From positions 1 through 47,554 of IMG/VR virus record IMGVR_UViG_3300049595_003185: a stretch of 47,554 nt of DNA; one strand, given 5' to 3'. Source of the DNA: a virus. The notes beneath the pieces are model-generated. The model was given only the letters and a program-made list of their open reading frames with translations, did not search any database and had not been told where the DNA came from. The position numbers were made by a program, and so were the translations under genes. Shown piece after piece: positions 6,609 to 42,129 of the stretch. Every line of letters starts with the position of its first letter. The first letter of the stretch is position 1.

Positions 6609-9008
6609 ATGACAACTAAAGCGTTCAAACTATTCCCCTACCAAGAAGACGCCGTGGCGCGGCATATCAAGATCCTCGACTCTGTTGGGGCCAGCCTCGA
6701 CGGGACCGGCTGCGGCGGCGGAAAAACAATCATTGCGAGTGCGGTTGCGGCACGGTTTGCCATACCGACGTGTGTTATAGCGCCGAAGTCAGTGCTGGTG
6801 AAGTGGGAGAGCACCCTAGCCGCGTTCGGCGTCGTTCCACTCTTCGTCCTGAACCCAGAAAAGTTACGGAACGGGAACACGCCCTGGCTCAAAAAGATCC
6901 CGAACGGGGGTAAAAAGGTAAAGTTTGAGTGGAATATACCCGAGCGGTGTCTTTTGATTTTCGACGAAGTTCACATGTTCGGCGCACACAGCTCCCAGAA
7001 CGGGAAGCTGCTCGAGACTGCGGCCGGCCATTACACCCTGATGCTCTCGGCGACCGCCGCCGAGAACCCGCTGCGAATGAAGGCGATCGGGGTCAACCTC
7101 CGGCTTTTCACGCCGAGCTACTACTGGAAGTGGGTCAGGGACATGGGTGCCGAGAAATCGCGGTGGGGCGGCTTGGAATGGGATCCCTACACGAACAAGG
7201 ACAAGATGGACCGGCTGCACCATTCGCTATTCGTGAATCGCGGATATCGCGTGTCCGAGGAGACCCTGCGGGAACAGTTGCCGGAATTGATGACCTCGGA
7301 CGAGCCGCTTTGGCTGTCGCCTGCCGATCGTGCCACCATCAAAGAACTCTATGACGAAATGTCCGATCCAGACGATCCAGGGGCCGTCAAAAACCTCCGC
7401 CAACGTCAAGTGGTCGAAGCAGTCAAAGTCCCCTACCTCGTCGAGAAAGCCAAAGAGCTGGTCGAGGCGGGAGGTTCAGTCGTCCTTTTCCTCAACTTCC
7501 ATGAATCCATCGACAAGGCAAGAATCCATTTTGACGATAACTGCGTCCTCGACGGACGCGTCCCTCAAACCCAAAGAAAAAAGACCCAAGACTCCTTTCA
7601 AAAGAACGACCTCCGAGTCGTCATCGTCCAGATCGCGGCCGGCGGCCAAAGCATCGACCTACACGACCTTGACGGACGTTTCCCACGTATTGCGCTTATA
7701 TGTCCCCAGTTCTCGGGGACTGTCGAGGAGCAGGCTGTTGGACGAATCTGTCGGGTGGGTGCAAAGTCTCGGGCGCTTGCAATCCGTCTTTACGCAGGAG
7801 GAACAGTCGAGCAAGCGGCGCTGAAGTTGACCGCGCAAAAACGCCAGAATGTAGAAATTCTCAACCGAGGCAAAAATAATTTGAACGAACCCGAAACAAC
7901 CGAAGTCACACCATCTATGCCCGCAGTCATAACCTCACAACCCGCCCACAGCGAGCACTCTCCCTCCTCCCTCAAACTCAAAGCAATATGTCCAGGATTC
8001 CGCAACGACCAGACGAGAGACAAGAGCGCGGCCGACAGGGGAACTCTCGGGCATCTGGCCGTGGAGAAGGAAAACCTAGACGTTATACCGCCGGAGGATA
8101 CGCGGCTCCGCGACGCAGCCGCTATGTGCTTGAAATATCTGGCACACCTCCGCGGCCAAACCAAGGACGCGAAGGAGATTCGCGAGAGACGTTACAAGAT
8201 GCTCGATCAGTTCGGACACATCGACCATCTGATCCTGCACGGAAACAAGTGCGAGCTGGTCGACTACAAGTTTGCCTTCAGTGCCTACGAAGCGGATTCA
8301 CCGCAATTTTGGGCCTACTCCGTGGGTGTTTGGGATGCCCATCCCGAGACGGAAATCGTCACCGCCCACGTCGTCCTTCCATTTCAAGGGGCTATTGATG
8401 TCGAGTCGTGGTCGCGGTCATCCGACTACGAGCGGCTCTCGGCGCAAACCGCCGCGATCATCGAAGCGGCTCGACGCAATAACCCCGAGACTTATCAGAC
8501 CGGCTCCCACTGCGCGTGGTGCGGCCAACGGGCCGTCTGCCCGAAGCTGAACAACCTCGCGCTCGCCGTGGCGAGCCAATACAAACCCGAGGAGCTGACC
8601 TTGCCGGACAAATACGATCCGGCCCTGATCGACGATCCGCTCGTCATGGCAACGGCCAAGCGACTTGGCCCGATCCTCAAATCGTGGGCCGAGAAAGTCG
8701 ACCAACGCGCCTTGGAAATGCGGCTGCACGAAGGGATCGAAATCCCCGGCTTCGAGCTGGCCGAGCGGTCGGCCCCTTTCAAAATCGTCGACGCGCAGGC
8801 TGCGTGGGACGTGGTCAAAGACACAATCACACCGGAAGCCTTCGCAGCCTGCGCCGACGTGTCGATAGGCGACTTGGAGAAAGCGGTGGCGAGAACGGCC
8901 AAACGCGGGACGATGAAGTCGGCCAAGGAAGAACTGCGCTGCGCCTTACTTGACGCCAACGCCGCCAAATCGGAGGGCCGCATCCACTTTCTACGAAAAA
9001 CAATTTAG
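6609..9008 (+). CDS. SF2 helicase fused to a PD-(D/E)XK nuclease
   Basis: A 799-aa DNA-processing enzyme. The helicase half has Walker A GCGGGKT (residues 34-40), DEVH (119-122), SAT (147-149), and a second RecA-like domain ending in QAVGRICRVG near 376, as in SNF2-like helicases. After a linker of about residues 425-470 comes a nuclease: HIDHLI (about 537) and ELVDYKF (about 553) give D...DxK, followed by CAWCGQRAVC (about 635-644), the cysteine cluster of phage DUF2800-type nucleases. It resembles separate phage helicase and RecB-like exonuclease genes joined into one. It starts the main replication block. Confidence 0.85.
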   Translation: MTTKAFKLFPYQEDAVARHIKILDSVGASLDGTGCGGGKTIIASAVAARFAIPTCVIAPKSVLVKWESTLAAFGVVPLFVLNPEKLRNGNTPWLKKIPNGGKKVKFEWNIPERCLLIFDEVHMFGAHSSQNGKLLETAAGHYTLMLSATAAENPLRMKAIGVNLRLFTPSYYWKWVRDMGAEKSRWGGLEWDPYTNKDKMDRLHHSLFVNRGYRVSEETLREQLPELMTSDEPLWLSPADRATIKELYDEMSDPDDPGAVKNLRQRQVVEAVKVPYLVEKAKELVEAGGSVVLFLNFHESIDKARIHFDDNCVLDGRVPQTQRKKTQDSFQKNDLRVVIVQIAAGGQSIDLHDLDGRFPRIALICPQFSGTVEEQAVGRICRVGAKSRALAIRLYAGGTVEQAALKLTAQKRQNVEILNRGKNNLNEPETTEVTPSMPAVITSQPAHSEHSPSSLKLKAICPGFRNDQTRDKSAADRGTLGHLAVEKENLDVIPPEDTRLRDAAAMCLKYLAHLRGQTKDAKEIRERRYKMLDQFGHIDHLILHGNKCELVDYKFAFSAYEADSPQFWAYSVGVWDAHPETEIVTAHVVLPFQGAIDVESWSRSSDYERLSAQTAAIIEAARRNNPETYQTGSHCAWCGQRAVCPKLNNLALAVASQYKPEELTLPDKYDPALIDDPLVMATAKRLGPILKSWAEKVDQRALEMRLHEGIEIPGFELAERSAPFKIVDAQAAWDVVKDTITPEAFAACADVSIGDLEKAVARTAKRGTMKSAKEELRCALLDANAAKSEGRIHFLRKTI

Positions 9009-13335: not shown

Positions 13336-13545
13336 ATGCTGCCCCACAACCTTATCCGTAACTTTGAGCGTATCAGCGATTGGCGCACACCCGACCGCTA
13401 TCAGGAAGAGAACGACGGCTACGTCACCATCGAGCGCGACCCGCTCCACCGCAAACACGAGGCGTTCTGCTGGAAGGCGGACATGACCCACGAACACCTC
13501 CTTACGATGTGGATGGGCGGACATTGGTTTGTCCGTAAAGCATAA
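13336..13545 (+). CDS. Hypothetical protein, 69 aa
   Basis: Not recognised. A charged protein rich in His, Trp and Arg (RISDWRTPDRY, HRKHEAFCWKAD, MWMGGHWFVRKA). It begins 6 nt after the polymerase stop with TAATAACCC before the ATG, and its stop codon is part of the next CATAACCTCACCACC junction. It could be a small DNA-binding accessory. Confidence 0.5.
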   Translation: MLPHNLIRNFERISDWRTPDRYQEENDGYVTIERDPLHRKHEAFCWKADMTHEHLLTMWMGGHWFVRKA

Positions 13546-13558
13546 CCTCACCACCTCG

Positions 13559-15076
13559 ATGAAATACCTTTCCGTCTGTTCCGGCATCGAAGCGGCCTCG
13601 GTCGCGTGGGAGCCGCTCGGCTGGCAACCAGCCGCGTTCTCCGAAATCGAACCCTTTCCTTCGGCGGTGCTCGCCCACCACTGGCCGTCGGTTCCCAACA
13701 TGGGCGACATGACTAAATATGAAGAATGGAAACTTGATCCAATCGGAATTCTGGTCGGCGGAACGCCATGCCAGTCCTTCTCCGTCGCCGGCCTCCGCAA
13801 AGGTCTCAAAGACTCGCGGGGAGGACTCATGCTTACCTATCTGGAAATCGCTCAACATTTTCGGCCTCGATGGATTGTCTGGGAAAACGTCCCCGGCGTC
13901 CTCAGTTCAAACGGAGGACGGGACTTTGGTTCCTTCCTCGGGGCGTTGGGCGACTTGGGGTATGGGTGGGCTTATCGCGTGCTCGATGCTCAGTGGGTCA
14001 GAACACAACGGCATCCCCGTGCCGTCGCGCAACGCAGGCGACGTGTGTTCGTTGTCGGATGTCTTGGAGACCCGATCCGTGCCGCCAAGGTTCTATTTGA
14101 GTCCGAAAGCGTGTGCCGGGATTATAAGGCGGGCGGCAAAAAGAAACAAAGTCCTGCCGGAGCATCTTCGCCGCGCTCTGGAAGCGGGATCCAAGTCGCC
14201 GGAGCCCTCGACACCCAATGCGGTGGCGGCAAGCTGACCCACCAATCTCTGGCCAACGGCCACGTCGTCGGCGCTCTCTCGGCGGAAGACGGCGAGCAGG
14301 GGCTCACCACAGTCCAAGCAGCCAAGTCGGGGATGCTGATCGCCACGGGCGACGGGCAGACTGCCGATCCGCTCACGGCGCACGAAGCCAATACTTACAC
14401 GCACGAAGGCTCCACGTTCCGGCTGCGGAATTGCGTGGCGCTACAAGACACCACGACGCGGGAGAAAGGCCAGAACGGCAAGGGCTGGAGCGACGATGGC
14501 TCAAGCTACACGCTGGACGCCGCCGCGACTCAGGGAGTTGCAACCATCGCGCCTCCCCTCACCCGCAATCCCTACGGCGACCACGAGTCCCGCGAAGGCG
14601 TCCTCGTTCCGGCCCGCATGGCGGCGTTCGGCGAATACGTGGAAGACGAGACCGCATCGACCATGAAGGCCCGTGACTTCCGCGACGCGACGGACTTGGT
14701 TGCCCACTCGCTGAGAGGCGAAGGGTTCGACGCAAGCGAAGACGGCACAGGACGCGGGACGCCGATTGCCGTCGACACCTACAACCAGACAGTCAGCGAT
14801 ACCTCGCAAGCCATTTCATCGGCGGCGAGCGACATCAACCACACCGGCGGGGTGATCGTGCCGCACGCCGTCCGCCGCCTCACCCCCACGGAGTGTGAAA
14901 GGCTTCAAGGCTTTAATGACGGACACACCCTCATCCCTTGGAAGGGTAAACCCGCCGACCAATGCCCTGACGGGCCACGCTACAAAGCCCTCGGTAACTC
15001 GATGGCCGTGAACTGTATGGAATGGATCGGCCAACGCATCGCTTTCTACGAACATCATAACCTAACAACCCCATGA
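13559..15076 (+). CDS. DNA (cytosine-5) methyltransferase
   Basis: A 505-aa enzyme that methylates C5 of cytosine in DNA. Motif I is SVCSGIEAAS, motif IV GGTPCQSFSVAG (nucleophile C71), motif VI ENVPGV, motif VIII QRRRRVFVVG, motif IX RRLTPTECERLQGF and motif X YKALGNSMAVN. Between VIII and IX is an unusually long Gly/Ser/Thr/Asp-rich target-recognition region of about 250 residues, as in several phage Dcm proteins. No cognate restriction nuclease is nearby, so it probably protects phage DNA. The start follows CATAACCTCACCACCTCG, and the stop overlaps the primase start. Confidence 0.92.
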   Translation: MKYLSVCSGIEAASVAWEPLGWQPAAFSEIEPFPSAVLAHHWPSVPNMGDMTKYEEWKLDPIGILVGGTPCQSFSVAGLRKGLKDSRGGLMLTYLEIAQHFRPRWIVWENVPGVLSSNGGRDFGSFLGALGDLGYGWAYRVLDAQWVRTQRHPRAVAQRRRRVFVVGCLGDPIRAAKVLFESESVCRDYKAGGKKKQSPAGASSPRSGSGIQVAGALDTQCGGGKLTHQSLANGHVVGALSAEDGEQGLTTVQAAKSGMLIATGDGQTADPLTAHEANTYTHEGSTFRLRNCVALQDTTTREKGQNGKGWSDDGSSYTLDAAATQGVATIAPPLTRNPYGDHESREGVLVPARMAAFGEYVEDETASTMKARDFRDATDLVAHSLRGEGFDASEDGTGRGTPIAVDTYNQTVSDTSQAISSAASDINHTGGVIVPHAVRRLTPTECERLQGFNDGHTLIPWKGKPADQCPDGPRYKALGNSMAVNCMEWIGQRIAFYEHHNLTTP

Positions 15077-29802: not shown

Positions 29803-30373
29803 GCCAGCACCACGAGGGGAACTTGTAACCCTTGCTTACATCTTGGGCCACGTCTTGTGGCAGCCAGATCTTGGCTTTGAGCGAGCAGCCGCACACGCCG
29901 CACTGATTGAGGCGTGAGTCATGGGCCGTGGTGCGCGCACCGATCAGCTTGAAGAGCCAATCGGCTAACCCCTTACACCGCCAGCATCCGGAGACGGAAG
30001 TGTTCAGCGGGCAGGCGGCGCAGGTTTTTGCCCGGGCTTCGGCTGTTTCCTGGTCCGCCAGGCCCCGGCTTCCCAGAGCGTTGACCGCCGCCTGAATGAA
30101 ACGCTTCACGTCGTCCATCGTGAAGTGGGTCTTGAGGGCGTAGTCCCCGTCGAGGACGTGCGTGCAGTTGTCGCTGCCCGCCGGAAGTTGGGCGCAGACG
30201 AAATCCTCGATTTCGGATCTGGGGTCACCGACAGGGAGGCCGTTGGCCTTGCGGTGTTCGGTCACCTTTTGAACGACAACGCGCAGGGTCGAGGCGGAGA
30301 ATTCAAAGCCGGTCTCCGGCTGGATGTAGCGCCATCCGCCGGGCGGCATCACGCTCGGGTCTTTGACTATCAT
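29780..30373 (-). CDS. Cysteine-rich putative zinc-binding protein
   Basis: A 197-aa protein. The C-terminal half carries CAACPLNTSVSGCWRCKG and later NQCGVCGCSLKAKIWLP, a paired C-x2-C arrangement of about eight Cys typical of two zinc knuckles. More Cys occur in EDFVCAQL and PSWCWLNG. The N-terminus starts MIVKDPSVMPPGGWRYIQPE, a pattern I associate with small phage proteins of unknown role. It is the last gene of the right-hand leftward block, in strong contrast to the cysteine-free proteins before it. The start overlaps the giant gene's stop (ATGA). Confidence 0.65.
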   Translation of the reverse strand: MIVKDPSVMPPGGWRYIQPETGFEFSASTLRVVVQKVTEHRKANGLPVGDPRSEIEDFVCAQLPAGSDNCTHVLDGDYALKTHFTMDDVKRFIQAAVNALGSRGLADQETAEARAKTCAACPLNTSVSGCWRCKGLADWLFKLIGARTTAHDSRLNQCGVCGCSLKAKIWLPQDVAQDVSKGYKFPSWCWLNGSDLE

Positions 30374-33300
30374 ATCTGCTCGGCTTGCGCTTGGCGGATG
30401 GCCTCTTCCAGTTCGCGAAGCCGCTCGGGGCGCATGTCTTTGCGGGCTTCACCGCTCGGGTTGAACGGCTCGTAGATACCAGCTCTGGCTCGTTCAATGT
30501 CGTCGCGGGTCACGCCCATCGCCCGCAGGCGTTCGGTCGCCGCAGCATCGCTCAGTCCCAGACGGCGAATCGACTTGTAGACTTCGCGGAATCCGCGAGC
30601 CAGGCGGAGGTGGGCGATGTTCGCCCGCGTCCAGGCGTCGGTCACGTCCCCCGGATTGACTTCGCCGGAGTTCAGGGCCACGCGGTTGAAGAGCGCGGTG
30701 GCGTCGCGTTTGTTCCGGTTGAATTCCGACGCCTTAAATCCAAGGCTCTGGACGAGGTCGATCTGGTTGACGCGCTGCCCCGCCACCAAGGCCGACATCT
30801 CTTGGACTGGATCATACGAGCGACCGCTCTCGGTCACCGTGCCGGTGGCGCCCATGCCGATCCGATACACGCTGCGGGCCGTTCCAGGGACGAAGGCGTT
30901 GCCGACGTGGCGGCCGACCGCTTCGATGATGTTGTCGGTGGTGTCCTGCGGATTGTAGATCCGGCGGCCCGTGGCGTCGATGTTGCGGGCCACGTCCATG
31001 ACTGCTCCGGCAAAGAGCTGCTCGCTCATAAACGGATCGAGCAACTCGCGGCCGACGGAGACGGCGCCCTTGACGATGGCTTCCTGCGGGTCTTCGGCCC
31101 CGCTGATGGCGCGGAAGAAGGCTTTGACCGGCTTCTTGAAATACTCGTGCGGGTCGAGGAACGACACATCGACGAAGCTGATCTTGTTTCCGTTGCGTCC
31201 CAGAATAAGGAGCTGGTTGTTCTTCTGCCAATCGGGCAGGAACTTGCGGAGATCTTCCTCGTCTTCGGCGGAGAACCCGAACAAAGACATGAGCGTGCTG
31301 CCGACGATGGCTGGGGCCAGCATGGCGATCGACATACCGGCCACGCGGCGCATAGCCAGCTTGGTCAACTCGGCGTTTCCAGTGCGCCGCCCTTCTGTCC
31401 ACTCCTCGTGGGCCAGCCGGCCGGTGTTGATCAGCGTGCGGACGACCTCGGTGGTGAAGGTGATGAATGGGGCGATGACCAAACCGGGGCCGCGCTTGAG
31501 ATCCTGAACCCACTTGGGAGCTTGTGAATAAGTCCAGTAGATGTCCCTTGAGATCTTGGCCGCCTTGTCCTTGAGTGCGTCATCTGACATCTTCGGATAG
31601 ATCTTTCGGTAGTTGTCGATCTCGGCGAAGTAAACCATGCCGCGGAAAATGTTATCGCTCATGGTGTAGAGACCTTGGGCGAAGTCCCAGGTCCGTTTTA
31701 CCGGCTGGCGCACGAAGGCGTCGTATCTCTTTTCCCATTCGGTATCGGCCTGTTTGGCCGCCGAACCGAGTTTCGCGTAGCTGTCGACCAGATCATTGAT
31801 CATGTTGACCGAGACGGATTCGCCGAACACGCCGCGTTTGATCGCGTCTTCGATCTCCTCCCGCAGCTTGGTGCGGCCCTTGGCGTCATCGGGATAGCGA
31901 TTGCTGAAATCAACCCACGCCAGCTTGTGCGCTTTCTTGATCGGACCTGTGCCTCCGAAAATGTTTCCGGTCGAAATGTATTTGAGCCAGCCAGATTGGT
32001 AGTTGCGGCTCTGGCCCTGCGCCGAGGCGACGGTGGCCATCGCCATCGTGAACCCTGTGGCTTTGCCCATCAAATTAAGCGCAGCGGGAAGCTGCTGATC
32101 GACCAGCGGGAACATCTCATAGAGTCCGGCGACGACTTCCGGCATCCCGTAGACGCCGTCCATCGGGGCCAGCTTCTCGTTGCCCTGCGCCGCGATCTTG
32201 ACGAATCCGGGAGGGATGTCGTCTTCGGGCAGGCTGTTCTGGTATTCCCGTGCATCGTCGAAATTGTCCGAGCGGAAGAGCTCCTCGCCGTTCTTGGTCA
32301 CGACATACTCGTCGCCGAACTGCGTGATCTTCGGTGCCTCGTAGAACCACCCCTCGGACAGCCCGAGTGTCTTCAGGTCGTTGAGGAAGATCTGGTTGTG
32401 GATCAGGCTCGAGACTTTCAGGACAGTCTTGCCGTAGCTGGTTTCAGGGTCGTCATAGACTCCCAGAAGCGCCTGGATTTCCGGCTCGATGTTGCCGCGC
32501 CGCTTGAGAATGCCCAAGTCTTTCTGCCCCATAATCCGCCCAGAGAGAATCTTCTTGGCCACCGGCTTGGCGTCGGCCAGCAAGCGGCTGATCTCAGCTT
32601 CTACCTGTGCCGCAGCGACGCTGGAATTAGCCATGCGCCGGGCTTCTTCGCGGGAAAGGACGCGCCCTTTCTCGGCCTCGTCGTCGCGCATCGCCTCGGC
32701 CTTGTCATTGACCAAACGCTGTCGGACGACGCGCCGGGCGTTGGCCATCACTTCGGGCATCTTGCGGACTTTCTCCTCCCATTCCGGATCGGTGAAGGCG
32801 CGGTAAACGCGGGTCAGATACATGCCGAGATTGGCATCGATCTCGAGGACGAGATCGTCGGTCAACAGACCTACTTTTTTGAGTGCAGCCGACAGCGACG
32901 CAATATGGTCGCTCATCTGGACGACTACCGAGCGCATCTCCTTGGGCAATGAAGCGCGGGCCGCATTCTGTTTCTCGCGGAAAGCCTCCTTGTTTTCACG
33001 GCGGTAGCGGTCTTCTAGAACTGAAGCGGCTTCGGGGTCGGTCAGCCGGACGACGCGGACGTTTTCCCGCTGTTCCGGAGTGAGCGGATTTTCGAGGCTG
33101 CCGATCGCCGTGGTGATGACCTGCGGCTTGATCTGGAGTCCGTTGCGTGCGGCCTGTCGCATGAGCCCGCGCAGGTCGCGCAGGAGCTTGGTCGCCCGGC
33201 TGGCCTCGGCTTCCATCGCTCCGCGCTTCTGTTGGTCGAGGTCGGTGATGCGGCGATCCGAGGTCGGAGCCACGGCGGAGATGAGCTTGGGCAAAACGAA

Positions 33301-36300
33301 GGTTCCGCCGGTCGGCGTCTCGACCACTTGGTCTCTAAAGATCCGCGTCAGCGTGCCTCCCAGACTCAATTTGGCCGTGGGATCCGGCTCTTCGAGATAA
33401 TCGGTGTCGTCATCGACGGGTAGCACGACTCCAAAATCTGGCCGCTGATCCGGCGGGATGTCGGACTCTGGGTCGGGGACTCCAGAGGGCGTGCTGAATT
33501 GTTGGGCGTTCCATCGCTTGGCTCCCGTGGGTCGGTCCATGCGAAGGCCGCGAGCGAGGAAGTTCTCTTTGTTGCCTGTCTTCCAGTTTTTCCAGACAGT
33601 CGTGTTGTCTTTGGCCACCTGCGCCTCGCGCACCCACTTCGGCCCGTCACCGGTTTGGATTTGCCGCCACGGCCCCCAATTCAAACTGTCCACCGCCGCG
33701 TTGAAGTCGGCCTCGATTTCGGCGTCGGTCGGCTTCGGCTCCTCTTTCTTGGCCTTCGGAGGTTTTGGTTCGGCCTTTGGCTTCGGCGTGAGGCCAAAAC
33801 GCTGGGCGGTTGCCGCACCCTTTTGGTCGTCGACTTTGGTCTGCGCCTTGGCCTGTTCGCGTTCGGCTTTTTTCTGATCTCGTTCCCGCTGTTTCGCGGC
33901 GGCCTTCTCGGCGTCGGCGATGGCGGCATCGGATTTCTTGCGGTCTTCTAGTTCGGCGCGGAGCTGGGCCGCCGCCTCGGTGTTTCCCCTCGCCTCGTTC
34001 TGGGCGATGAGCTCTTCGTATTCGGCGGCTGTGAAGAGGAAGTCGCGACGCGGTTGTTTGCGGCGCACGCCCTGAATCTGCACCGCACGCAGAGCCGCTC
34101 CCAGTTCCGCTCGACGGGCGTCCGAAGCCTGGCGCTCTGCACTCGGAGTGCCGAAGACAGGTTCATTTGGGTCGGGCAACTGAGCGATCAGGCCGGAAAT
34201 CTCGCGTTCGACGTTCTGACTTGTGGCTAACGCGGCCTGCTCTTCGGCGTTCGGGCTGGTCAACTGCGTCAGTCCGAGCTGCCGTGCGGCGTTGGCGCGG
34301 GTGACATAATACAGAGTCACGGGATCCACGTCGGGCAGCTCGACGTTGTTCTGGCGGGCGGCATTGAAGGCGGCCACGAATTCCTGCTCGGTGACGGCCA
34401 GCGCCATGCGGGCCAGCGCATCGTCGCGGTTTACTTGCTGCTCTTCCGCCTGCTCGTCAGTTAATTCAGGCTGTTCTTCGTTTGCTGTCGTCCGTTGGCC
34501 GGTTGTTCCCGTTCCGGTTGTTCCGGTCGGGGTCTCCACTTTGGTCTCGGTCGTGGTAGCTGGAGCTGGAGCTGGAGCTGGAGTTGGTGTTCTCGACAAA
34601 TCCGGCAAGTTGGCTCTGGGAGCGCGGGTCGGCGTGCGGCCACGAGCTAGTTCGGCTTCTCGGGCGGCCCCTTTCTTGGCGGCCTCGGCACGCAGGGTAG
34701 AGAACTCTTGGGCTAGTGCGTTGCGGTCGGCGGAGGTTCCGGCCAAGTTGCGGGCCTCGAGCTGATCTCGGATGAAACGCTCCTGCAAGAGAGCGGCGTC
34801 CAGCTCGTCCACCAAAGCGTTCTTGATGATCTGCGGCGCGGTGAACTTTGAGGTCGGCCCGCTGAAGCCCACATTGTATTCCTTGTCGGGGTTACCGAGG
34901 CTCGCGTAAGTGAGCATGTAAGAGTCGGTGAAAGCGCGGGCCAGCGGCGAGTCGGGCGCCATCTTCACTCCAGCCTCCAGCTCTGCCACCGAATTCCAAA
35001 GATCGCGCAACGCTCCAGTGAACTGCGCCTGTGTCCCGTCGCCCTTGGCAAATCCCAGATCGGCGAGCAGCTTGAAGACCGCCGGATTGCCCGTGGCCTC
35101 GATGATGAACTCCTGCAAATTGGTCAGCGCACGAAGCGTCTGGTTGGCCTCTTGTCCGGAAATCTCCACGAGCTGGGCGTTGACCGCGTCGAATTCCCCG
35201 GCGATCCCCCGCTCCTTGGCTGCGGCCGTGACGGCGGCCCGGCGCATATTCTCCAGCCGCTCAAGGGCGGCGGTTTCGACGGGATTCAGGTTGATCTCCC
35301 CGTCGAGCTTGGCTCCTAGAACCACGTGTTCGTATTCGTGGATGAGCGTCGCCACCGAGCCGCCGGGCCGGTCATGGACGGCATTCAGGTTCAGATAGAT
35401 GGAAAACGCCCCCTCGCTGCCGATGTTCACGGCGCGTCCGCCCCACGGGACGACGTTGGACATTGCGATGTCTTGACGCACCGCTTCATAGATTTTCTCT
35501 TGTATCTCCAGCGCATCGGCTTTGCGCGAAGGCACCGGCACTTCCTGCCGCTGGCCGCCGATCTTGAAGATAAAGACGGGCTTTTTGTCCTTGGCCCCGA
35601 CTTTGACCCGTTTCTCGATTTCTTTCTCGGTGATCGGACGATCTGTGTAATTGCGCCCAAACGCCGCGATCTGCGTGGCTACGTTGTCGTCCCAGTCCAC
35701 CCGTGAGTTGAGCCGCGTCAATTCCTTGGCCAGCAGCCGCAACTGCTCGGGCATTTTGGGATCGTTGGCCGCCGTCTCGAGGAACTTTGTCGTTCCGGCA
35801 AAGGCGCGGGCCTCGGCCAATGCTCCGATGTTCTTGCGGAGGTTGGCCACCCGCTCGCGGTTGAGCTGTTGCTGCCGCGCCTCGGCGGCCATGCCGGTCA
35901 GGAGTTCAAAGCCGTTCTGGGAGGAAAGCAGGTCAGCCATCGGCTGCGGCGTCTGGGCAATGACATTGCCGCCGGCCGCCAAAGTCGTCTCCGCACCTTT
36001 GGCTTCGGTCTGGATCGCGCTGTAGATCCGGCCGATTTCCTCGTCCGGCAGGGCGTTGAGATCTTTGTCAGTGAACGCCTCGACGTAGAACCGCTCGGCC
36101 TGCGGCGCTAGACGGCGGACTTCTCCGGCTGAAAGACGACGTTGAACGCGTGGTCCCGCAGTTGGGCCATCGGCTGGTCGCGGAACACTTCCGGATCGTT
36201 CTGCATCAGGCTGCCCAGCACTTGGTAATCCCCTTGGAGCATCGAATCCAAGTTGGCCCCCAAGCGATTCGCTAACGGCGTCTGCTCGGGGGAGTTCGCT

Positions 36301-39300
36301 ATCTCCATAGCTACTAGGGTCGAGGCCAGTCCCGCTGACAGGGCTAGGGGCGACAGCGAAGCGGAGCCGGTTGTCTCGGCGCGCTTGGCTACTGCCTCGG
36401 AGTCCTGGCGCGGTGCCTCGGTCGAGGACGCCTGCTTCTCGGGTTGGAGTGGTTCGGAGTTGGATTGTTTCGGTTTCATTGGTCGGTTCTTGTCTCGGGG
36501 GAAGATTGGGGATGTCGCGGAGGTAATCGAAATGTTTTTCCGCGATAGCTCGGTCGGCCTCGCTAACGTCGTCGAGTTCGTTGAGGTCGGCGAGAGCTTC
36601 TTCAAATTGTTTTAGTCTCGCGCCGGTTTCGTCGCCATACCAGATGCGGCGTTTCTCTTTGTTGTAAGCCAATCCGGAAACTTTGTAGACGATGGCCGCT
36701 TCTTCCGGCGGAATTTGATTTCGGAGATAATCGGCCGCTTCTCGCACGATGACCATGCGTGGCGTGGTCCCAGAGCCCGAGCCAGTGAGCTTGGAAGCCG
36801 GGTCGGTTTTCACTGCATCCATCTGCGCTTGGAGATCCTGCGCTTCGGCTTGCGTCATCTGTGTCGGCTCTCCTTCGCGGGAGCCAAATATGTCAGGGTT
36901 GGTTCCGTATTGCGTGGATTGATCGACGCGATTGGCGCGGGCGGTTTCAGCCCGTTTGCGGGCGGCGTCTACCGCTTGGGTCGCGACAGTAAGCGGATTG
37001 AATCCTCTAGTTCCAGGAGTGCCTGCGTAAAAGTCGCCCAGCACGGCGACCATGTTTTCAAACAACCGGGCTTCGCGTTCAGTTTTGTTCTTGTCACCTT
37101 TGCCGAGCTTTTCCTGCACCCGCTTTTTCGCAGCCGCAAGATCGCTCTTTTTGATCGCACCTGTAGCGCGGGCCGCTCTCGCTCTGGCTTTGCGGCCGGG
37201 CGCACCGGCAGTCAGCGATTCGGTTTTGCTTTCAACAATGGCATGAAGACGCGTCCACAATCCGCGCAGTTGCGTCGGATCTAGCTGCCCGCGCTTCCCG
37301 CTCTTGGTCGTCACATCGCGGGTCGGCTTGCGGCGATACTCGTCGATAAGCTCCAGTGCTGCTTCCGGATTAGCGTCAAAGACCGCCTGCACATCCTCGT
37401 CGGGCACCCCGAGTGAAGCGGCCTCGAGCCGTGCGGCCAAACGATCTTCGGACGGGCTACGGCGCGCTTGGCTGGCCAATCGTTCACGGACGACCGCACC
37501 AAGTTCGGAGACAAACGCTTTGGCCAACCGCGCTTGTTCGGCCGGGTCAATCTGGGAAGGTGCGCCGCCACGCTGACGACGAGCGTCGAGGACACGGAGG
37601 AAACTAGAGATGGCCGAGTTGTAAGCCAAGTTTTGCGCTGTCCCGAGAACCTGCTCGTATTCGGTTTCGCCAAGTGGCTGCGACAAACCGCGCTGCGCGG
37701 CCATCATTATACGGTCCCGATTGGCATAGAAATTCGCATCGGGAAACACGCTGGTCATCATCCCGATGACTTCTCCGATCAGCACGCGATCGGCTTCAGG
37801 GAGATTTTGCAGGGCTTCCTGCATCTCCTGTGTTCTTTGTGCCTCAAGGGTTTGTGCGTCCAACCGCTTCCGTTCGGACTGCACGCTGCGTTCGGGGTCT
37901 GTCTGGTAAATTTTGGCGAACGAACCGGGGCCGCGCAGCTCGGAGAACTGCGCCGGGTTGTAGGATTTCAAGCCACGTTGAAACTCAAGGCGCTCCTTGG
38001 CCAGCTTGGCTTCGAGCGGTTCGACGCGGCTCTCGAGCTGCCGGACTTTTTCCTGCGCTTTCTGCAATTCTTGAACCGGCTTTTCATCTATAACGAAGTT
38101 GGACAGAGCCTTCTCGCGGTCGGCCAACTGCTTCTTCAACTGGCGTCGTTCCCGCTGGGCGGCAGCTTTGCGGCTGGCCGCCTCTTGTTTTTCCTGCGCC
38201 GTGACGGCCTTCGCTTGTTCGGTAAGTTTGCGGATTTCGGCATTGCGACGGTTGCGGGCGTTCTTCGATTCGCGCAGCCGCCCCTCCAGCGCGGTGCGCT
38301 GGGTCATCAACTGTGAAAGATCGCCCGACATCCGCGAGCGGTAAGCGACCGAGTTGGTGTCCTTGAGCGAAGCGGTGCGTTTCTTGGCCAGCTCCTCGTC
38401 GGTTTCGCGGATCTGCTTACGCAAGCGCATGTCGCTGCGGGCAGATTTGTCGTTCTCGTCGTTGAGTTCTTTTTGCCGCGCCGTAATTGCCTCGGTCTGG
38501 GAAGCCGGAGCCGGAGCATCGGCCTTGACGAGCAGGCCGCGCAGCTCGTTGATTTCACTCTCGAGGGCTTGGCGCTCCTCGCGGCGGCCGGTCACTCGGT
38601 TGGCGCGTTGCTGGAGAAGGTTCAAGCCCGATCGTTCACCACGGATTGCAGTCCGCAACAAGCGGCGCTCGTTTTCTTGGCGAGCCATCAGCGTGCCTTC
38701 CGCTTCGCGTTCTTTTGTTTGCAACTCACGCTCTTTGTCGCGCTCCTGTGGAGTCATCGGCGACCCGCTGGCAACCGCTTCAAGATCGTTCGGGTCTTGA
38801 GCCAATCCACCACGCACCGGCTTTGATCCCTGGGTGAAAGTATACGGCGCCTGCTTTCCGTCCGTCCCGCGCCACACGAGGGAGACGACAGTCGGCACAG
38901 CCGAACCCGTCGGCTTGCCTGTTGGGTCGAGCGGGACGCGCATGTCGATGTTCACATCGGGGTCGGCCCGCAAAATATTGAGCAGCTCCTCGGAGCCGAC
39001 GCGGCCTTCCATTTCCTGCACAGTTTCCGGAGTGATCGTGACTACGTGGCCCGTGTCCATGCTGCGGAGCATGTCTTTCTTGAGTCGGGTCAGGCTGGTG
39101 TTGAAATTCGCTTGGTTGCCCGCGACTTCTTTTTGCGCCCGCTCTGTTGCCCGCTCCCGAGCCATTTCCATCTCTTTCTGGATCTGGCGCTGGGATTTCT
39201 GGACGGGAACTGCCTCGCCTTGCGGCCCGGTGTAGAAATCACCGGACAGCACTTTGGCCTGCTCTTCTTGAAAAGCGCGGCTGTAGGCTTCATCAAAGTC

Positions 39301-42129
39301 GGGTTTGGCCGGAGTCGGCTCGACGAGCAGCTCAAACTTGGCGAAGAGCGGGCGCTTCATTACGAGCTGGCCTTGCGCCCCGCGCCCCCAGATCTCGTTG
39401 AAGGTGTCAGTGTCTCCGCCGATGAACTGATATGGAATGCCGCCGACTTGGCCGCCACCGGACGCAGGGCCGCCGACAGTCAATCCTTCGGTTGCGGCTG
39501 CCCCCTCGGCCAATCCTCTCGTCAATTCACGCTGGACTGCTGCTTCTCCCTGCTCTCGTGTCGGACCACCTAACTCCGCAGGAGTTGCGAAATACCCCGG
39601 AACAGTTTCCGCTTCAGCCTCCGCCTCGCCGGTCAGACGCGGCTTGGCTTTCCGCGAAGTCTGAAACATGTAGCGGACGCGGTAGGTCAGATCACTATCA
39701 CCACCCGGCGTCTTGACTTTGACCTTGTGCGATCCACCAGCCGGTAGAAACCCGCCGGTCAAACGGGCCAGCTCTTCGGGCGTCTTGGCCTCGCGGAGCT
39801 GGCGATTGAAGTCGGCTTCGTCGCTCAGTTCGGCGGGATTCTCAATGCGGAACCCGACATTCTTGAATTGCGCCGGAGTAAGTTCGATGCGCGATCCGTC
39901 TTCCTCGAGCTTGAACCTCGCGTTGCCGTTGGCGTTGCGGGCAACAAACATGGCCGGAACCATCTCATCTCCCAGAAGAACAGAGACTTTGTCGCCGGTC
40001 CGCATACCGCTGACGGCGGTGCCATCGAGGGCGGTCTGCGCTTCTTGCTCGCGGCGGCGTTGCTCTTCGGACATCGCTTTGCGGCGAGTTTTGAACTCGG
40101 CGATTGGCTCTGTTGCCCCCACCGTGAAGCCCGCAGGCCCGTCCTGAAACGCGATCCCTGAAGCCGTCGGTGAGAGCAAACGTGCGCGCAGATTGGAAAT
40201 AATCTCCGCCCGATTGCGGCGGTCTTCTTCCGTGATACTTTCGTCATCGAGTTCGTTCTGGAGCCGTTCGATCTCGGCCTCGGTCTCGGCTTCCTTCGCG
40301 AGCTGCTGCTCGCTGATGACGCGGACATTTTGCACCTGACCGATCGGGATGTCGGCTGGCCCGTCCCCAAAGTCGGCCGTAAGGAAAATCGACCGGCCCG
40401 GCAGGGTAGAATCTTTACCCGGAAGATTCGTTCTAGAACTCGTGACGACCCCACGCCGCCCGTTGAACTCAATAGTTGCCCCCGGCCGCGCCGCTTCGGT
40501 GAGAACCGGCGTGCGAGCGCCGCCCACACCTTGACGCCCTGGAGGGCGGGCCATCATCGTCTCGACTGGCACCAACTCAGTGCCATCGTCTTCGGTCTCT
40601 TCGGCGGCCTGAGGCAAGTTTTGTTGTTCTGGTTCGGCTTCGCCGCGAAACGCGCTCAAGGCATCCTGCGCTCGGGCAGCCAGCGCAGCCCCTTTCCGGG
40701 TTCCGAGATTCACCAGCGCCACAGGGGCGTTGCTCAGTTCAGTCGCCACCGCTGGGCCGAGTCCTTCGACTTCGGGCGGGTTCAGCGCGGCCCAAATGTT
40801 CGCGTCGGGGTTATACCGCAGCTTGAGGCCGTCCACATCGACCTCGTCCAACCAGTTTCCGGCGATCGTCCGAGGCCCGCCGTCCGTAGTAGTAGCGGCA
40901 TCCGTTCCCTGCTCAAATCGGTCATCGGCTGGCGCCCCGACCTCGTCGAGCTTGGCCTTGGTCCGTGGAGCAAGAACCTCGAGCGTTCCGGCCCCGCCGC
41001 CGAGAAGACCGCCGACTGTCGCGCCGGCCGCCGCAGCAAGCTGGCGTTCGCGCTCCGCTCCAGGGGCGGCGAGTCGCTGCCCGACTGTCTGCTCTGGATC
41101 AGCCATGCCGACCGCTGCTTGCTCCAATCCGGTCTGGATGTATTCGGTCGGCCCTTCGATGGCCGCGCCGCCCGCCACACCTTTGGCCGCCCCGAATCCG
41201 GCACGGGCCGGAAGCGACATGCCGAGAGCTTTGCTTTCCACGCCACGGGCAAAGGGCCGCAACGATTGGATCGGCCTCGAGGCGATGAAGATTTCTGAAA
41301 GTGTATCAAGGGCCGCTCCGGGGACAGCCGTGCCTACGGCGGACAAGACAGCTCCCGTTCCCCCCTCGCCGGTCTCGTCGCGGATTTGCCCGTAGGTTCC
41401 GCCCGCAATCTGCCCGAAGTTGGCCAAGTAGGCTCCGGTGTAGGCGCCGGAACGGAAACCCTGCTCCAATCCTTCGCGAGCCGTCTGGCCCGCTACCGAC
41501 GCGCCTAGCCCCGTAGAAGCCGCTTCATCAGCCTTGGCCATTGCAGCCTTGCGGAGGATACTTTTGGTGGCCTCCTCGGCTATCTCGCGCTCTGCTGCTG
41601 TGGCCGTGGCTCCTGCTGCGACGCGCTTCAGCACCTCGTTGGCCACCATCTTCTTGGCCAGCGACTTGCCGACAAAACCTCCCACGCCACCGCCCGCGAT
41701 CGAGGTAATGAGCTGCGGGATCTGCTCACCGATCAACCCGACGGCATAGCGTCCGGCATCGGAGAAACTTCCGATTTCGGTAAAAGGATCGGTGACTGTG
41801 GCCTCTTTGGAAGCCGCTTCTTCCATCGCCTGCCGGTAGTTGTCGTAGCCCCAATCCGCTCCGGCCTCCACTCCCAGAGCATCGGCGGCCAGCCCCACCA
41901 GCCCGTAGCCCAAGCCCCGAAGCTGATCCTCGCCCCGGTCAAGACCGACCGAGAACTCTTCGCCCATTGTGCGCGGCGGGGCTGCGTTGATAAATTCCCC
42001 TACCGACCGAAGTTTGGTCAGGGGGACGGCTTCCTCGTCAGTAGAACGAGCGACTAGCCTGTTTAGCGGAATCGCTTTTTCAGTAGTCGTTGTCTCCGCC
42101 GTTTCCTCGTCAAGGTCGAACCAGGCCAT
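30370..42129 (-). CDS. Giant virion protein (3,919 aa): polyvalent, metallopeptidase and LPD38-like parts
   Basis: A quarter of the window. In order: residues about 110-400 are Gly/Ala-rich hydrophobic, membrane-active-looking segments; about 530-600 and 700-760 are small beta (SH3-like) units; about 1080-1440 are charged coiled coil; about 2264-2268 HEYEH in ATLIHEYEHVVLGA is an HExxH metallopeptidase; about 2500-2560 is a Pro/Thr linker; the last 570 residues resemble LPD38-type C-terminal regions of large polyvalent proteins, with GMYLTRVYRAFTDP before them. It is probably packaged and ejected with DNA. It has no cysteine. Between 36479 and 36108 another frame looks like the coding one. 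Confidence 0.75.
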   Translation of the reverse strand: MAWFDLDEETAETTTTEKAIPLNRLVARSTDEEAVPLTKLRSVGEFINAAPPRTMGEEFSVGLDRGEDQLRGLGYGLVGLAADALGVEAGADWGYDNYRQAMEEAASKEATVTDPFTEIGSFSDAGRYAVGLIGEQIPQLITSIAGGGVGGFVGKSLAKKMVANEVLKRVAAGATATAAEREIAEEATKSILRKAAMAKADEAASTGLGASVAGQTAREGLEQGFRSGAYTGAYLANFGQIAGGTYGQIRDETGEGGTGAVLSAVGTAVPGAALDTLSEIFIASRPIQSLRPFARGVESKALGMSLPARAGFGAAKGVAGGAAIEGPTEYIQTGLEQAAVGMADPEQTVGQRLAAPGAERERQLAAAAGATVGGLLGGGAGTLEVLAPRTKAKLDEVGAPADDRFEQGTDAATTTDGGPRTIAGNWLDEVDVDGLKLRYNPDANIWAALNPPEVEGLGPAVATELSNAPVALVNLGTRKGAALAARAQDALSAFRGEAEPEQQNLPQAAEETEDDGTELVPVETMMARPPGRQGVGGARTPVLTEAARPGATIEFNGRRGVVTSSRTNLPGKDSTLPGRSIFLTADFGDGPADIPIGQVQNVRVISEQQLAKEAETEAEIERLQNELDDESITEEDRRNRAEIISNLRARLLSPTASGIAFQDGPAGFTVGATEPIAEFKTRRKAMSEEQRRREQEAQTALDGTAVSGMRTGDKVSVLLGDEMVPAMFVARNANGNARFKLEEDGSRIELTPAQFKNVGFRIENPAELSDEADFNRQLREAKTPEELARLTGGFLPAGGSHKVKVKTPGGDSDLTYRVRYMFQTSRKAKPRLTGEAEAEAETVPGYFATPAELGGPTREQGEAAVQRELTRGLAEGAAATEGLTVGGPASGGGQVGGIPYQFIGGDTDTFNEIWGRGAQGQLVMKRPLFAKFELLVEPTPAKPDFDEAYSRAFQEEQAKVLSGDFYTGPQGEAVPVQKSQRQIQKEMEMARERATERAQKEVAGNQANFNTSLTRLKKDMLRSMDTGHVVTITPETVQEMEGRVGSEELLNILRADPDVNIDMRVPLDPTGKPTGSAVPTVVSLVWRGTDGKQAPYTFTQGSKPVRGGLAQDPNDLEAVASGSPMTPQERDKERELQTKEREAEGTLMARQENERRLLRTAIRGERSGLNLLQQRANRVTGRREERQALESEINELRGLLVKADAPAPASQTEAITARQKELNDENDKSARSDMRLRKQIRETDEELAKKRTASLKDTNSVAYRSRMSGDLSQLMTQRTALEGRLRESKNARNRRNAEIRKLTEQAKAVTAQEKQEAASRKAAAQRERRQLKKQLADREKALSNFVIDEKPVQELQKAQEKVRQLESRVEPLEAKLAKERLEFQRGLKSYNPAQFSELRGPGSFAKIYQTDPERSVQSERKRLDAQTLEAQRTQEMQEALQNLPEADRVLIGEVIGMMTSVFPDANFYANRDRIMMAAQRGLSQPLGETEYEQVLGTAQNLAYNSAISSFLRVLDARRQRGGAPSQIDPAEQARLAKAFVSELGAVVRERLASQARRSPSEDRLAARLEAASLGVPDEDVQAVFDANPEAALELIDEYRRKPTRDVTTKSGKRGQLDPTQLRGLWTRLHAIVESKTESLTAGAPGRKARARAARATGAIKKSDLAAAKKRVQEKLGKGDKNKTEREARLFENMVAVLGDFYAGTPGTRGFNPLTVATQAVDAARKRAETARANRVDQSTQYGTNPDIFGSREGEPTQMTQAEAQDLQAQMDAVKTDPASKLTGSGSGTTPRMVIVREAADYLRNQIPPEEAAIVYKVSGLAYNKEKRRIWYGDETGARLKQFEEALADLNELDDVSEADRAIAEKHFDYLRDIPNLPPRQEPTNETETIQLRTTPTREAGVLDRGTAPGLRGSSQARRDNRLRFAVAPSPVSGTGLDPSSYGDSELPRADAVSESLGGQLGFDAPRGLPSAGQPDAERSGSVPRPADGPTAGPRVQRRLSAGEVRRLAPQAERFYVEAFTDKDLNALPDEEIGRIYSAIQTEAKGAETTLAAGGNVIAQTPQPMADLLSSQNGFELLTGMAAEARQQQLNRERVANLRKNIGALAEARAFAGTTKFLETAANDPKMPEQLRLLAKELTRLNSRVDWDDNVATQIAAFGRNYTDRPITEKEIEKRVKVGAKDKKPVFIFKIGGQRQEVPVPSRKADALEIQEKIYEAVRQDIAMSNVVPWGGRAVNIGSEGAFSIYLNLNAVHDRPGGSVATLIHEYEHVVLGAKLDGEINLNPVETAALERLENMRRAAVTAAAKERGIAGEFDAVNAQLVEISGQEANQTLRALTNLQEFIIEATGNPAVFKLLADLGFAKGDGTQAQFTGALRDLWNSVAELEAGVKMAPDSPLARAFTDSYMLTYASLGNPDKEYNVGFSGPTSKFTAPQIIKNALVDELDAALLQERFIRDQLEARNLAGTSADRNALAQEFSTLRAEAAKKGAAREAELARGRTPTRAPRANLPDLSRTPTPAPAPAPATTTETKVETPTGTTGTGTTGQRTTANEEQPELTDEQAEEQQVNRDDALARMALAVTEQEFVAAFNAARQNNVELPDVDPVTLYYVTRANAARQLGLTQLTSPNAEEQAALATSQNVEREISGLIAQLPDPNEPVFGTPSAERQASDARRAELGAALRAVQIQGVRRKQPRRDFLFTAAEYEELIAQNEARGNTEAAAQLRAELEDRKKSDAAIADAEKAAAKQRERDQKKAEREQAKAQTKVDDQKGAATAQRFGLTPKPKAEPKPPKAKKEEPKPTDAEIEADFNAAVDSLNWGPWRQIQTGDGPKWVREAQVAKDNTTVWKNWKTGNKENFLARGLRMDRPTGAKRWNAQQFSTPSGVPDPESDIPPDQRPDFGVVLPVDDDTDYLEEPDPTAKLSLGGTLTRIFRDQVVETPTGGTFVLPKLISAVAPTSDRRITDLDQQKRGAMEAEASRATKLLRDLRGLMRQAARNGLQIKPQVITTAIGSLENPLTPEQRENVRVVRLTDPEAASVLEDRYRRENKEAFREKQNAARASLPKEMRSVVVQMSDHIASLSAALKKVGLLTDDLVLEIDANLGMYLTRVYRAFTDPEWEEKVRKMPEVMANARRVVRQRLVNDKAEAMRDDEAEKGRVLSREEARRMANSSVAAAQVEAEISRLLADAKPVAKKILSGRIMGQKDLGILKRRGNIEPEIQALLGVYDDPETSYGKTVLKVSSLIHNQIFLNDLKTLGLSEGWFYEAPKITQFGDEYVVTKNGEELFRSDNFDDAREYQNSLPEDDIPPGFVKIAAQGNEKLAPMDGVYGMPEVVAGLYEMFPLVDQQLPAALNLMGKATGFTMAMATVASAQGQSRNYQSGWLKYISTGNIFGGTGPIKKAHKLAWVDFSNRYPDDAKGRTKLREEIEDAIKRGVFGESVSVNMINDLVDSYAKLGSAAKQADTEWEKRYDAFVRQPVKRTWDFAQGLYTMSDNIFRGMVYFAEIDNYRKIYPKMSDDALKDKAAKISRDIYWTYSQAPKWVQDLKRGPGLVIAPFITFTTEVVRTLINTGRLAHEEWTEGRRTGNAELTKLAMRRVAGMSIAMLAPAIVGSTLMSLFGFSAEDEEDLRKFLPDWQKNNQLLILGRNGNKISFVDVSFLDPHEYFKKPVKAFFRAISGAEDPQEAIVKGAVSVGRELLDPFMSEQLFAGAVMDVARNIDATGRRIYNPQDTTDNIIEAVGRHVGNAFVPGTARSVYRIGMGATGTVTESGRSYDPVQEMSALVAGQRVNQIDLVQSLGFKASEFNRNKRDATALFNRVALNSGEVNPGDVTDAWTRANIAHLRLARGFREVYKSIRRLGLSDAAATERLRAMGVTRDDIERARAGIYEPFNPSGEARKDMRPERLRELEEAIRQAQAEQI
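34561..34584. repeat. Hexanucleotide repeat (TGGAGC)n in the giant gene
   Basis: Four tandem units (the last TGGAGT) that encode an alternating Pro-Ala linker on the minus strand, followed by a Thr-rich segment. Length changes here would keep the frame and vary linker length. Confidence 0.7.
36108..36479 (-). CDS. Nested +1 frame inside the giant gene, 123 aa
   Basis: ATG 36479 begins MKPKQSNSEPLQPEKQASST, goes through SLSPLALSAGLASTLVAMEI and ANRLGANLDSMLQGDYQVLG, and ends RDHAFNVVFQPEKSAV at TAG 36108. In the last 23 codons 21 have G/C in the third place, against 5 of 20 in the giant frame there, so this is the frame with coding character. It may be an overlapping gene. Or the giant gene is really two genes: one more C in the C5 run at 36497-36501 would end the upstream part at a TGA overlapping this ATG, and one more base before the TAG would join this frame to the downstream part. 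Confidence 0.55.
   Translation of the reverse strand: MKPKQSNSEPLQPEKQASSTEAPRQDSEAVAKRAETTGSASLSPLALSAGLASTLVAMEIANSPEQTPLANRLGANLDSMLQGDYQVLGSLMQNDPEVFRDQPMAQLRDHAFNVVFQPEKSAV

Follow-up and report, generated by a model that had tools for sequence, protein, structure and literature searches.

The window analysed here, that is, the whole 47,554-nucleotide stretch of DNA, is a 47.6-kb IMG/VR virus record (IMGVR_UViG_3300049595_003185) of a tailed phage, with genes for terminase, family-A DNA polymerase, helicase and primase. On its plus strand, positions 6609-9008 encode a single 799-aa protein that joins an SF2 helicase (phrog_62, PF00271) to a C-terminal domain of DUF2800/exonuclease-like type (phrog_69). 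A C5-cytosine DNA methyltransferase ORF of 515 aa (PF00145) lies at 13529-15076, also on the plus strand; its residues 18-312 match phrog_864 too, which is labelled 'DNA primase'.

The following features were delineated on the minus strand:

30370..42129, minus strand: giant gene, a continuous long ORF of about 11.8 kb encoding 3919 aa
36108..36479, minus strand: very probable nested overlapping gene in the +1 frame, 123 aa, ATG at 36479-36477 and TAG at 36110-36108, marked by its presence in 19/19 relatives, conservation, synonymous constraint and codon usage
36108..36479, minus strand: linker of the giant protein in frame 0, residues ~1884-2007, basic and Gly/Pro/Ser-rich, kept open and conserved beyond chance
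36450..36509, minus strand: putative internal translation-initiation region, A-rich and almost unstructured, with a weak Shine-Dalgarno sequence

The C-terminal part of the giant protein matched phrog_22602, 'virion structural protein', and a distant homologue, gp123 of Cellulophaga phage phi18:3, is annotated as virion-detected by MS/MS. Both gp123 (Pachyviridae) and Pseudoalteromonas phage vB_Pun_Y3 showed homology to the C-terminal ~800 aa at 23-25%; unlike the phage group of the window, these two phages had neither the nested gene nor a detectable N-terminal half. The nested gene was likewise absent from distant phages sharing only the C-terminal part of the giant protein. In vB_Pun_Y3 (L021), the homologue of the giant C-terminus has a gene of its own (1,027 aa, annotated as ADP-ribosyltransferase), and the gene before it (3,421 aa) is annotated as DdrB-like, which indicates that giant virion genes are divided differently among distant relatives.

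Codon usage of the nested frame

The nested ORF is complete, with its own start and stop codons, and lies wholly within the giant gene in a different frame, the same arrangement being observed in 20/20 genomes. An earlier note on this DNA had reported a switch of the coding frame inside the giant gene, with the nested ATG exactly at the switch and the TAG exactly at the return. Both coordinates were confirmed, and the switch between 36479 and 36108 proved to be real, as the shift in coding signal spanned all 123 codons of the nested ORF and a homologous +1 ORF occurred at this position in 19/19 relatives. Over the last 23 nested codons, G/C-ending codons numbered 21/23, as previously counted, against 7/23 for the giant codons there; for the last 20 giant codons the count was 6/20, correcting the earlier 5/20.

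GC contents at codon positions 1, 2 and 3 were.65,.45 and.77, respectively, in the nested frame, and.66,.46 and.72 in the giant gene elsewhere, while GC3 of the giant frame in the overlap reached only.45. In 9/10 genomes, codon usage was typical in the nested frame and as poor as in random +1 frames for the giant frame in the overlap, L006 being ambiguous. Synonymous usage of the giant frame was normal up- and downstream; it fell over the stretch from some 20 codons ahead of the nested start to the nested stop and recovered immediately past it. Because long alternative frames open by chance are common in the GC-rich giant gene, openness of a frame alone was not taken as evidence; it is the shift in codon usage together with conservation that constitutes the evidence for the nested gene.

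Relatives and selection on both frames

With the C-terminus of the giant protein, 19 related IMG/VR loci representing about 10 distinct lineages were retrieved. Among single-sequence queries, only this conserved part revealed relatives; neither the nested protein nor the middle of the giant protein gave a match in IMG/VR or phage records. A profile of the nested protein built from five seed sequences matched every other relative exactly in the +1 open frame within the giant ORF, with E-values from 5e-21 to 1.5e-13 for non-seed, non-duplicate sequences, a next best E-value of 1.2, and one convincing match per genome. Identity to the nested protein of the window was about 30-34% for most relatives and 16% for L006. 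A scan with the nested relatives yielded no loci beyond those already found, two exact-DNA scans found no second copy of the window junctions, and no prophage relatives were found in 84,980 genomes. A profile made from the first 400 aa of the giant protein recovered the known relatives and L034 (IMGVR_UViG_3300034101_005102), which encodes these residues with 100% identity to the window protein; this contig ends before the nested gene and so cannot serve to check the frame junctions.

The earlier note had proposed, as one of three readings, that the 3,919-aa ORF may conceal two proteins of about 1,880 and 2,035 aa. Two compensating indel errors would then have merged neighbouring genes, and the nested ORF would be either a third gene or the beginning of the second. 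The codon bias, which changes frame at 36479 and reverts at 36108, agrees with such a pair of errors. However, the giant frame was unbroken to the limit of each of the 19 loci (2,884-3,898 codons; two loci end short at the 3' side), all of them from other metagenome assemblies, and the order 0/+1/0 was constant in 19/19. Moreover, giant-frame residues aligned across the overlap, with 49% over 89 aa to L002. The proposal of two proteins was thus refuted for the gene as it now stands, and paired errors can be regarded as extremely improbable. The homologues conserved the giant frame, contrary to the two-protein proposal, and they conserved the nested frame as well, in favour of the overlapping gene that had been offered beside it.

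Within the giant gene, the C-terminal third was near-identical between L009 and L010 (>90% even in alternative frames), whereas strong divergence was observed around the nested gene, the nested proteins being 49-52% identical. This contrast suggests recombination within the giant gene.

Alternative-frame ORFs elsewhere in the giant gene were also similar between genomes where the giant frame is well conserved. Since conservation of the main frame yields such similarity too, raw alternative-frame similarity was dropped as stand-alone evidence, and a paired test was used instead, in which the nested-frame and giant-frame scores were compared on the same DNA for each genome pair. The nested score exceeded the giant score in 41/42 pairs, with a median ratio of 1.56. 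In the background of 645 other alternative-frame pairs, the median ratio was 0.58, and 13 values were above 1.

Giant-frame pS was markedly reduced in the overlap. Values for the overlap and the rest of the gene were.055 and.608 for L010/L007,.064 and.616 for L007/L019,.009 and.113 for L003/L004, 0 and.324 for L012/L014, and.27 and.70 for L008/L009; in these five pairs, pS in the overlap was below that of every other segment of the gene. Altogether, the overlap was the lowest segment in 6/12 pairs, each drop being about 2.6-fold or more relative to the rest of the gene, and other segments were as low or lower in L010/L009, L012/L013, L010/L011, L015/L018 and L002/L003. The pair L007/L020 is identical around the nested site and hence uninformative for pS. 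In the nested frame, pN was lower than pS among close pairs.

These results bear on the reading that the nested ORF is untranslated and that its +1 similarity arises as a by-product, either of a conserved giant protein or of an RNA element. Such a reading draws on the similarity of alternative frames elsewhere, but the ranking of the two frames is reversed here, pN is below pS in the +1 frame, +1 codon usage is typical, and start and stop are preserved. An RNA element, for its part, would not maintain an amino-acid profile in a single frame. A by-product of either kind is therefore very improbable.

The giant frame was open across the overlap in 20/20 genomes. When the nested amino acids were fixed and codons were drawn by phage codon usage, the simulated probability of an open giant frame was 0-0.0105 for every one of the 10 representative genomes. 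A more stringent control, in which only the existing codons were shuffled, gave P values of.0025-.36, which are higher because the nested codons present already avoid stops. In 40/45 pairs, giant-frame similarity was above the level that the nested protein dictates; this control presumes saturated synonymous sites, so that closer pairs overstate the excess. In the overlap, giant-frame pN of close pairs was about equal to or above pS, indicating weak protein constraint on the giant frame there. As judged from these sequence comparisons, both frames are coding and both are selected, the nested one more strongly. The overlapping gene allowed for in the earlier note was strongly supported by the profile matches, the paired conservation, the drop in pS, the openness test and the excess giant-frame similarity.

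Start site, expression and products

The 60 nt around the nested ATG of the window had a minimum free energy of -0.3 kcal/mol, and only 0.3% of segments of the gene were equally unstructured. In 10/10 representative genomes, the start-site region fell in the least structured 0-5% of segments, and an ATG was present at the corresponding place in 20/20 genomes. The L010 group carries a strong Shine-Dalgarno sequence, AGGAG, about 9 nt upstream of this ATG. That of the window genome is weak; several ordinary genes, the giant gene included, are also without a strong one. L006, L007, L010, L011, L019 and L020 each carry an in-frame stop one codon ahead of the nested ATG.

Recoding, which the earlier note had also considered, would take the form of a programmed +1 frameshift from the giant into the nested frame, producing the N-terminal half with an alternative C-terminus. 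The shared strand, the +1 relation and the position of one ORF within a larger one are compatible with it. However, an own ATG is conserved at the nested start in every genome, the stop one codon upstream leaves no window for a shift in the six genomes named above, and the start site resembles an initiation region. A frameshift is thus unlikely in the extreme, and expression of the nested ORF through internal initiation is what we infer.

Taken together, the stretch 36479..36108 on the minus strand is very likely a genuine +1 nested gene within one continuous giant virion-protein gene, presumably internally initiated and with both frames under selection. On the late mRNA, some ribosomes would initiate internally at the nested ATG within the unstructured patch, and nested translation would end at its own TAG. 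Other ribosomes would read through in the giant frame, yielding an uninterrupted protein of about 3,900 aa in which residues ~1884-2007 would form a linker.

The nested proteins comprise 91-137 aa, with pI values of 4.1-5.0, a soluble acidic profile and no transmembrane stretch; the maximal 19-residue Kyte-Doolittle value was 1.48 for the window protein and as low as -0.01 in others. A conserved helical core, G-D-x-x-x-W/L-x-D/E-L-x-x-x-x-P-E-x-F and E-D-L-A-x-x-x-L, is accompanied by variable Pro/Ser-rich tails, and the AlphaFold model displayed six helices (pLDDT 75). Profile and fold searches of the family against Pfam, PHROGs, PDB and BFVD returned only chance-level matches. A nested spanin (Rz1-like) was considered and rejected, given the acidic soluble profile and the lack of both a transmembrane segment and a lipoprotein signal at the N-terminus.

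For the linker, pI values of 9.9-12.0 and G/P/S fractions of.22-.35 were obtained in 10 genomes. The pairing of an acidic with a basic product is partly dictated by the code: where the nested codon is GAx (Asp/Glu), its GA occupies the second and third positions of the giant codon, which then reads Arg or Gly. Since the nested gene shares its strand with the late structural cluster around it, its product might be a small soluble late protein that partners the giant virion protein in assembly, helping it to fold, be packaged or be ejected, a role we put forward tentatively.

Age of the frames and comparison with known systems

Codon usage is used as a criterion for the ancestral frame in overlaps, viral +1 internal overlaps have most often arisen de novo, and old de novo genes can gain normal codon usage (PMC8227390). 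By the codon-usage criterion, the data suggest an ancestral nested frame in 9/10 genomes, L006 again being ambiguous. On the same criterion alone, the linker could have been overprinted on an older small gene, fusing N-terminal and C-terminal modules, although we consider this doubtful. Two points keep the probability of this history low: old de novo genes may have normal usage, and no phage with separate N- and C-modules was found among relatives and distant phages. No stand-alone version of the small gene was found when phi18:3, Pun_Y3 and 023Pt_psg01 were searched for one.

The nested gene may instead be real and translated, having arisen de novo inside an older giant linker and matured since; this competes with the ancestry part only, and it too is no better than a tentative possibility. 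The orphan status of the nested family speaks for such an origin, as do the prevalence of de novo origin among viral +1 internal overlaps and the normal codon usage that aged de novo genes may show (PMC8227390). Against it, giant-frame usage is abnormal in the overlap and normal outside, and nested-frame usage is normal, the nested frame appearing ancestral in 9/10 genomes. The notion of two proteins may in this respect retain a meaning as history, with the giant frame extended across an older small gene. It is conceivable, if doubtful, that a small ancestral gene between two virion genes was captured when the gene upstream read through it in a different frame, that the two virion genes were thereby fused into one giant gene, with the second reading of the small gene becoming a structural linker, and that its acidic product still partners the basic linker or the giant protein.

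The nested gene was kept in every member found of this group of uncultured phages, even at ~30% identity of the nested protein. A giant single-chain virion protein can thus carry a separate gene within its linker, and gene callers that forbid full nesting overlook such genes.

Fully nested +1 overlapping genes are known in phages from E in D of phiX174 and Rz1 in Rz of lambda. The gene described here resembles them in being small and complete, with a start and a stop of its own, in its +1 frame, and in the selection on both frames; it therefore belongs to a known class of mechanism, and the protein family is new. In contrast to the tiny ssDNA genome of phiX174 and the lysis cassette of lambda, the host gene here is a virion gene of about 11.8 kb in a tailed dsDNA phage, and the nested product, having no transmembrane stretch, does not resemble a lysis protein.

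A further likeness concerns the hepatitis B virus polymerase, whose spacer lies over PreS/S and for which modular overprinting has been proposed (PMC8227390). On this model, both cases would have a small gene with the older codon usage, crossed in another frame by a linker that joins two modules into a single larger polypeptide. The virus and proteins are unrelated, and here the split precursor genes were not found, the fusion being read from codon usage alone. With that difference, the locus would offer a parallel in tailed phages to the hepatitis B idea, namely that two proteins may become fused through a linker overprinted on an older gene.
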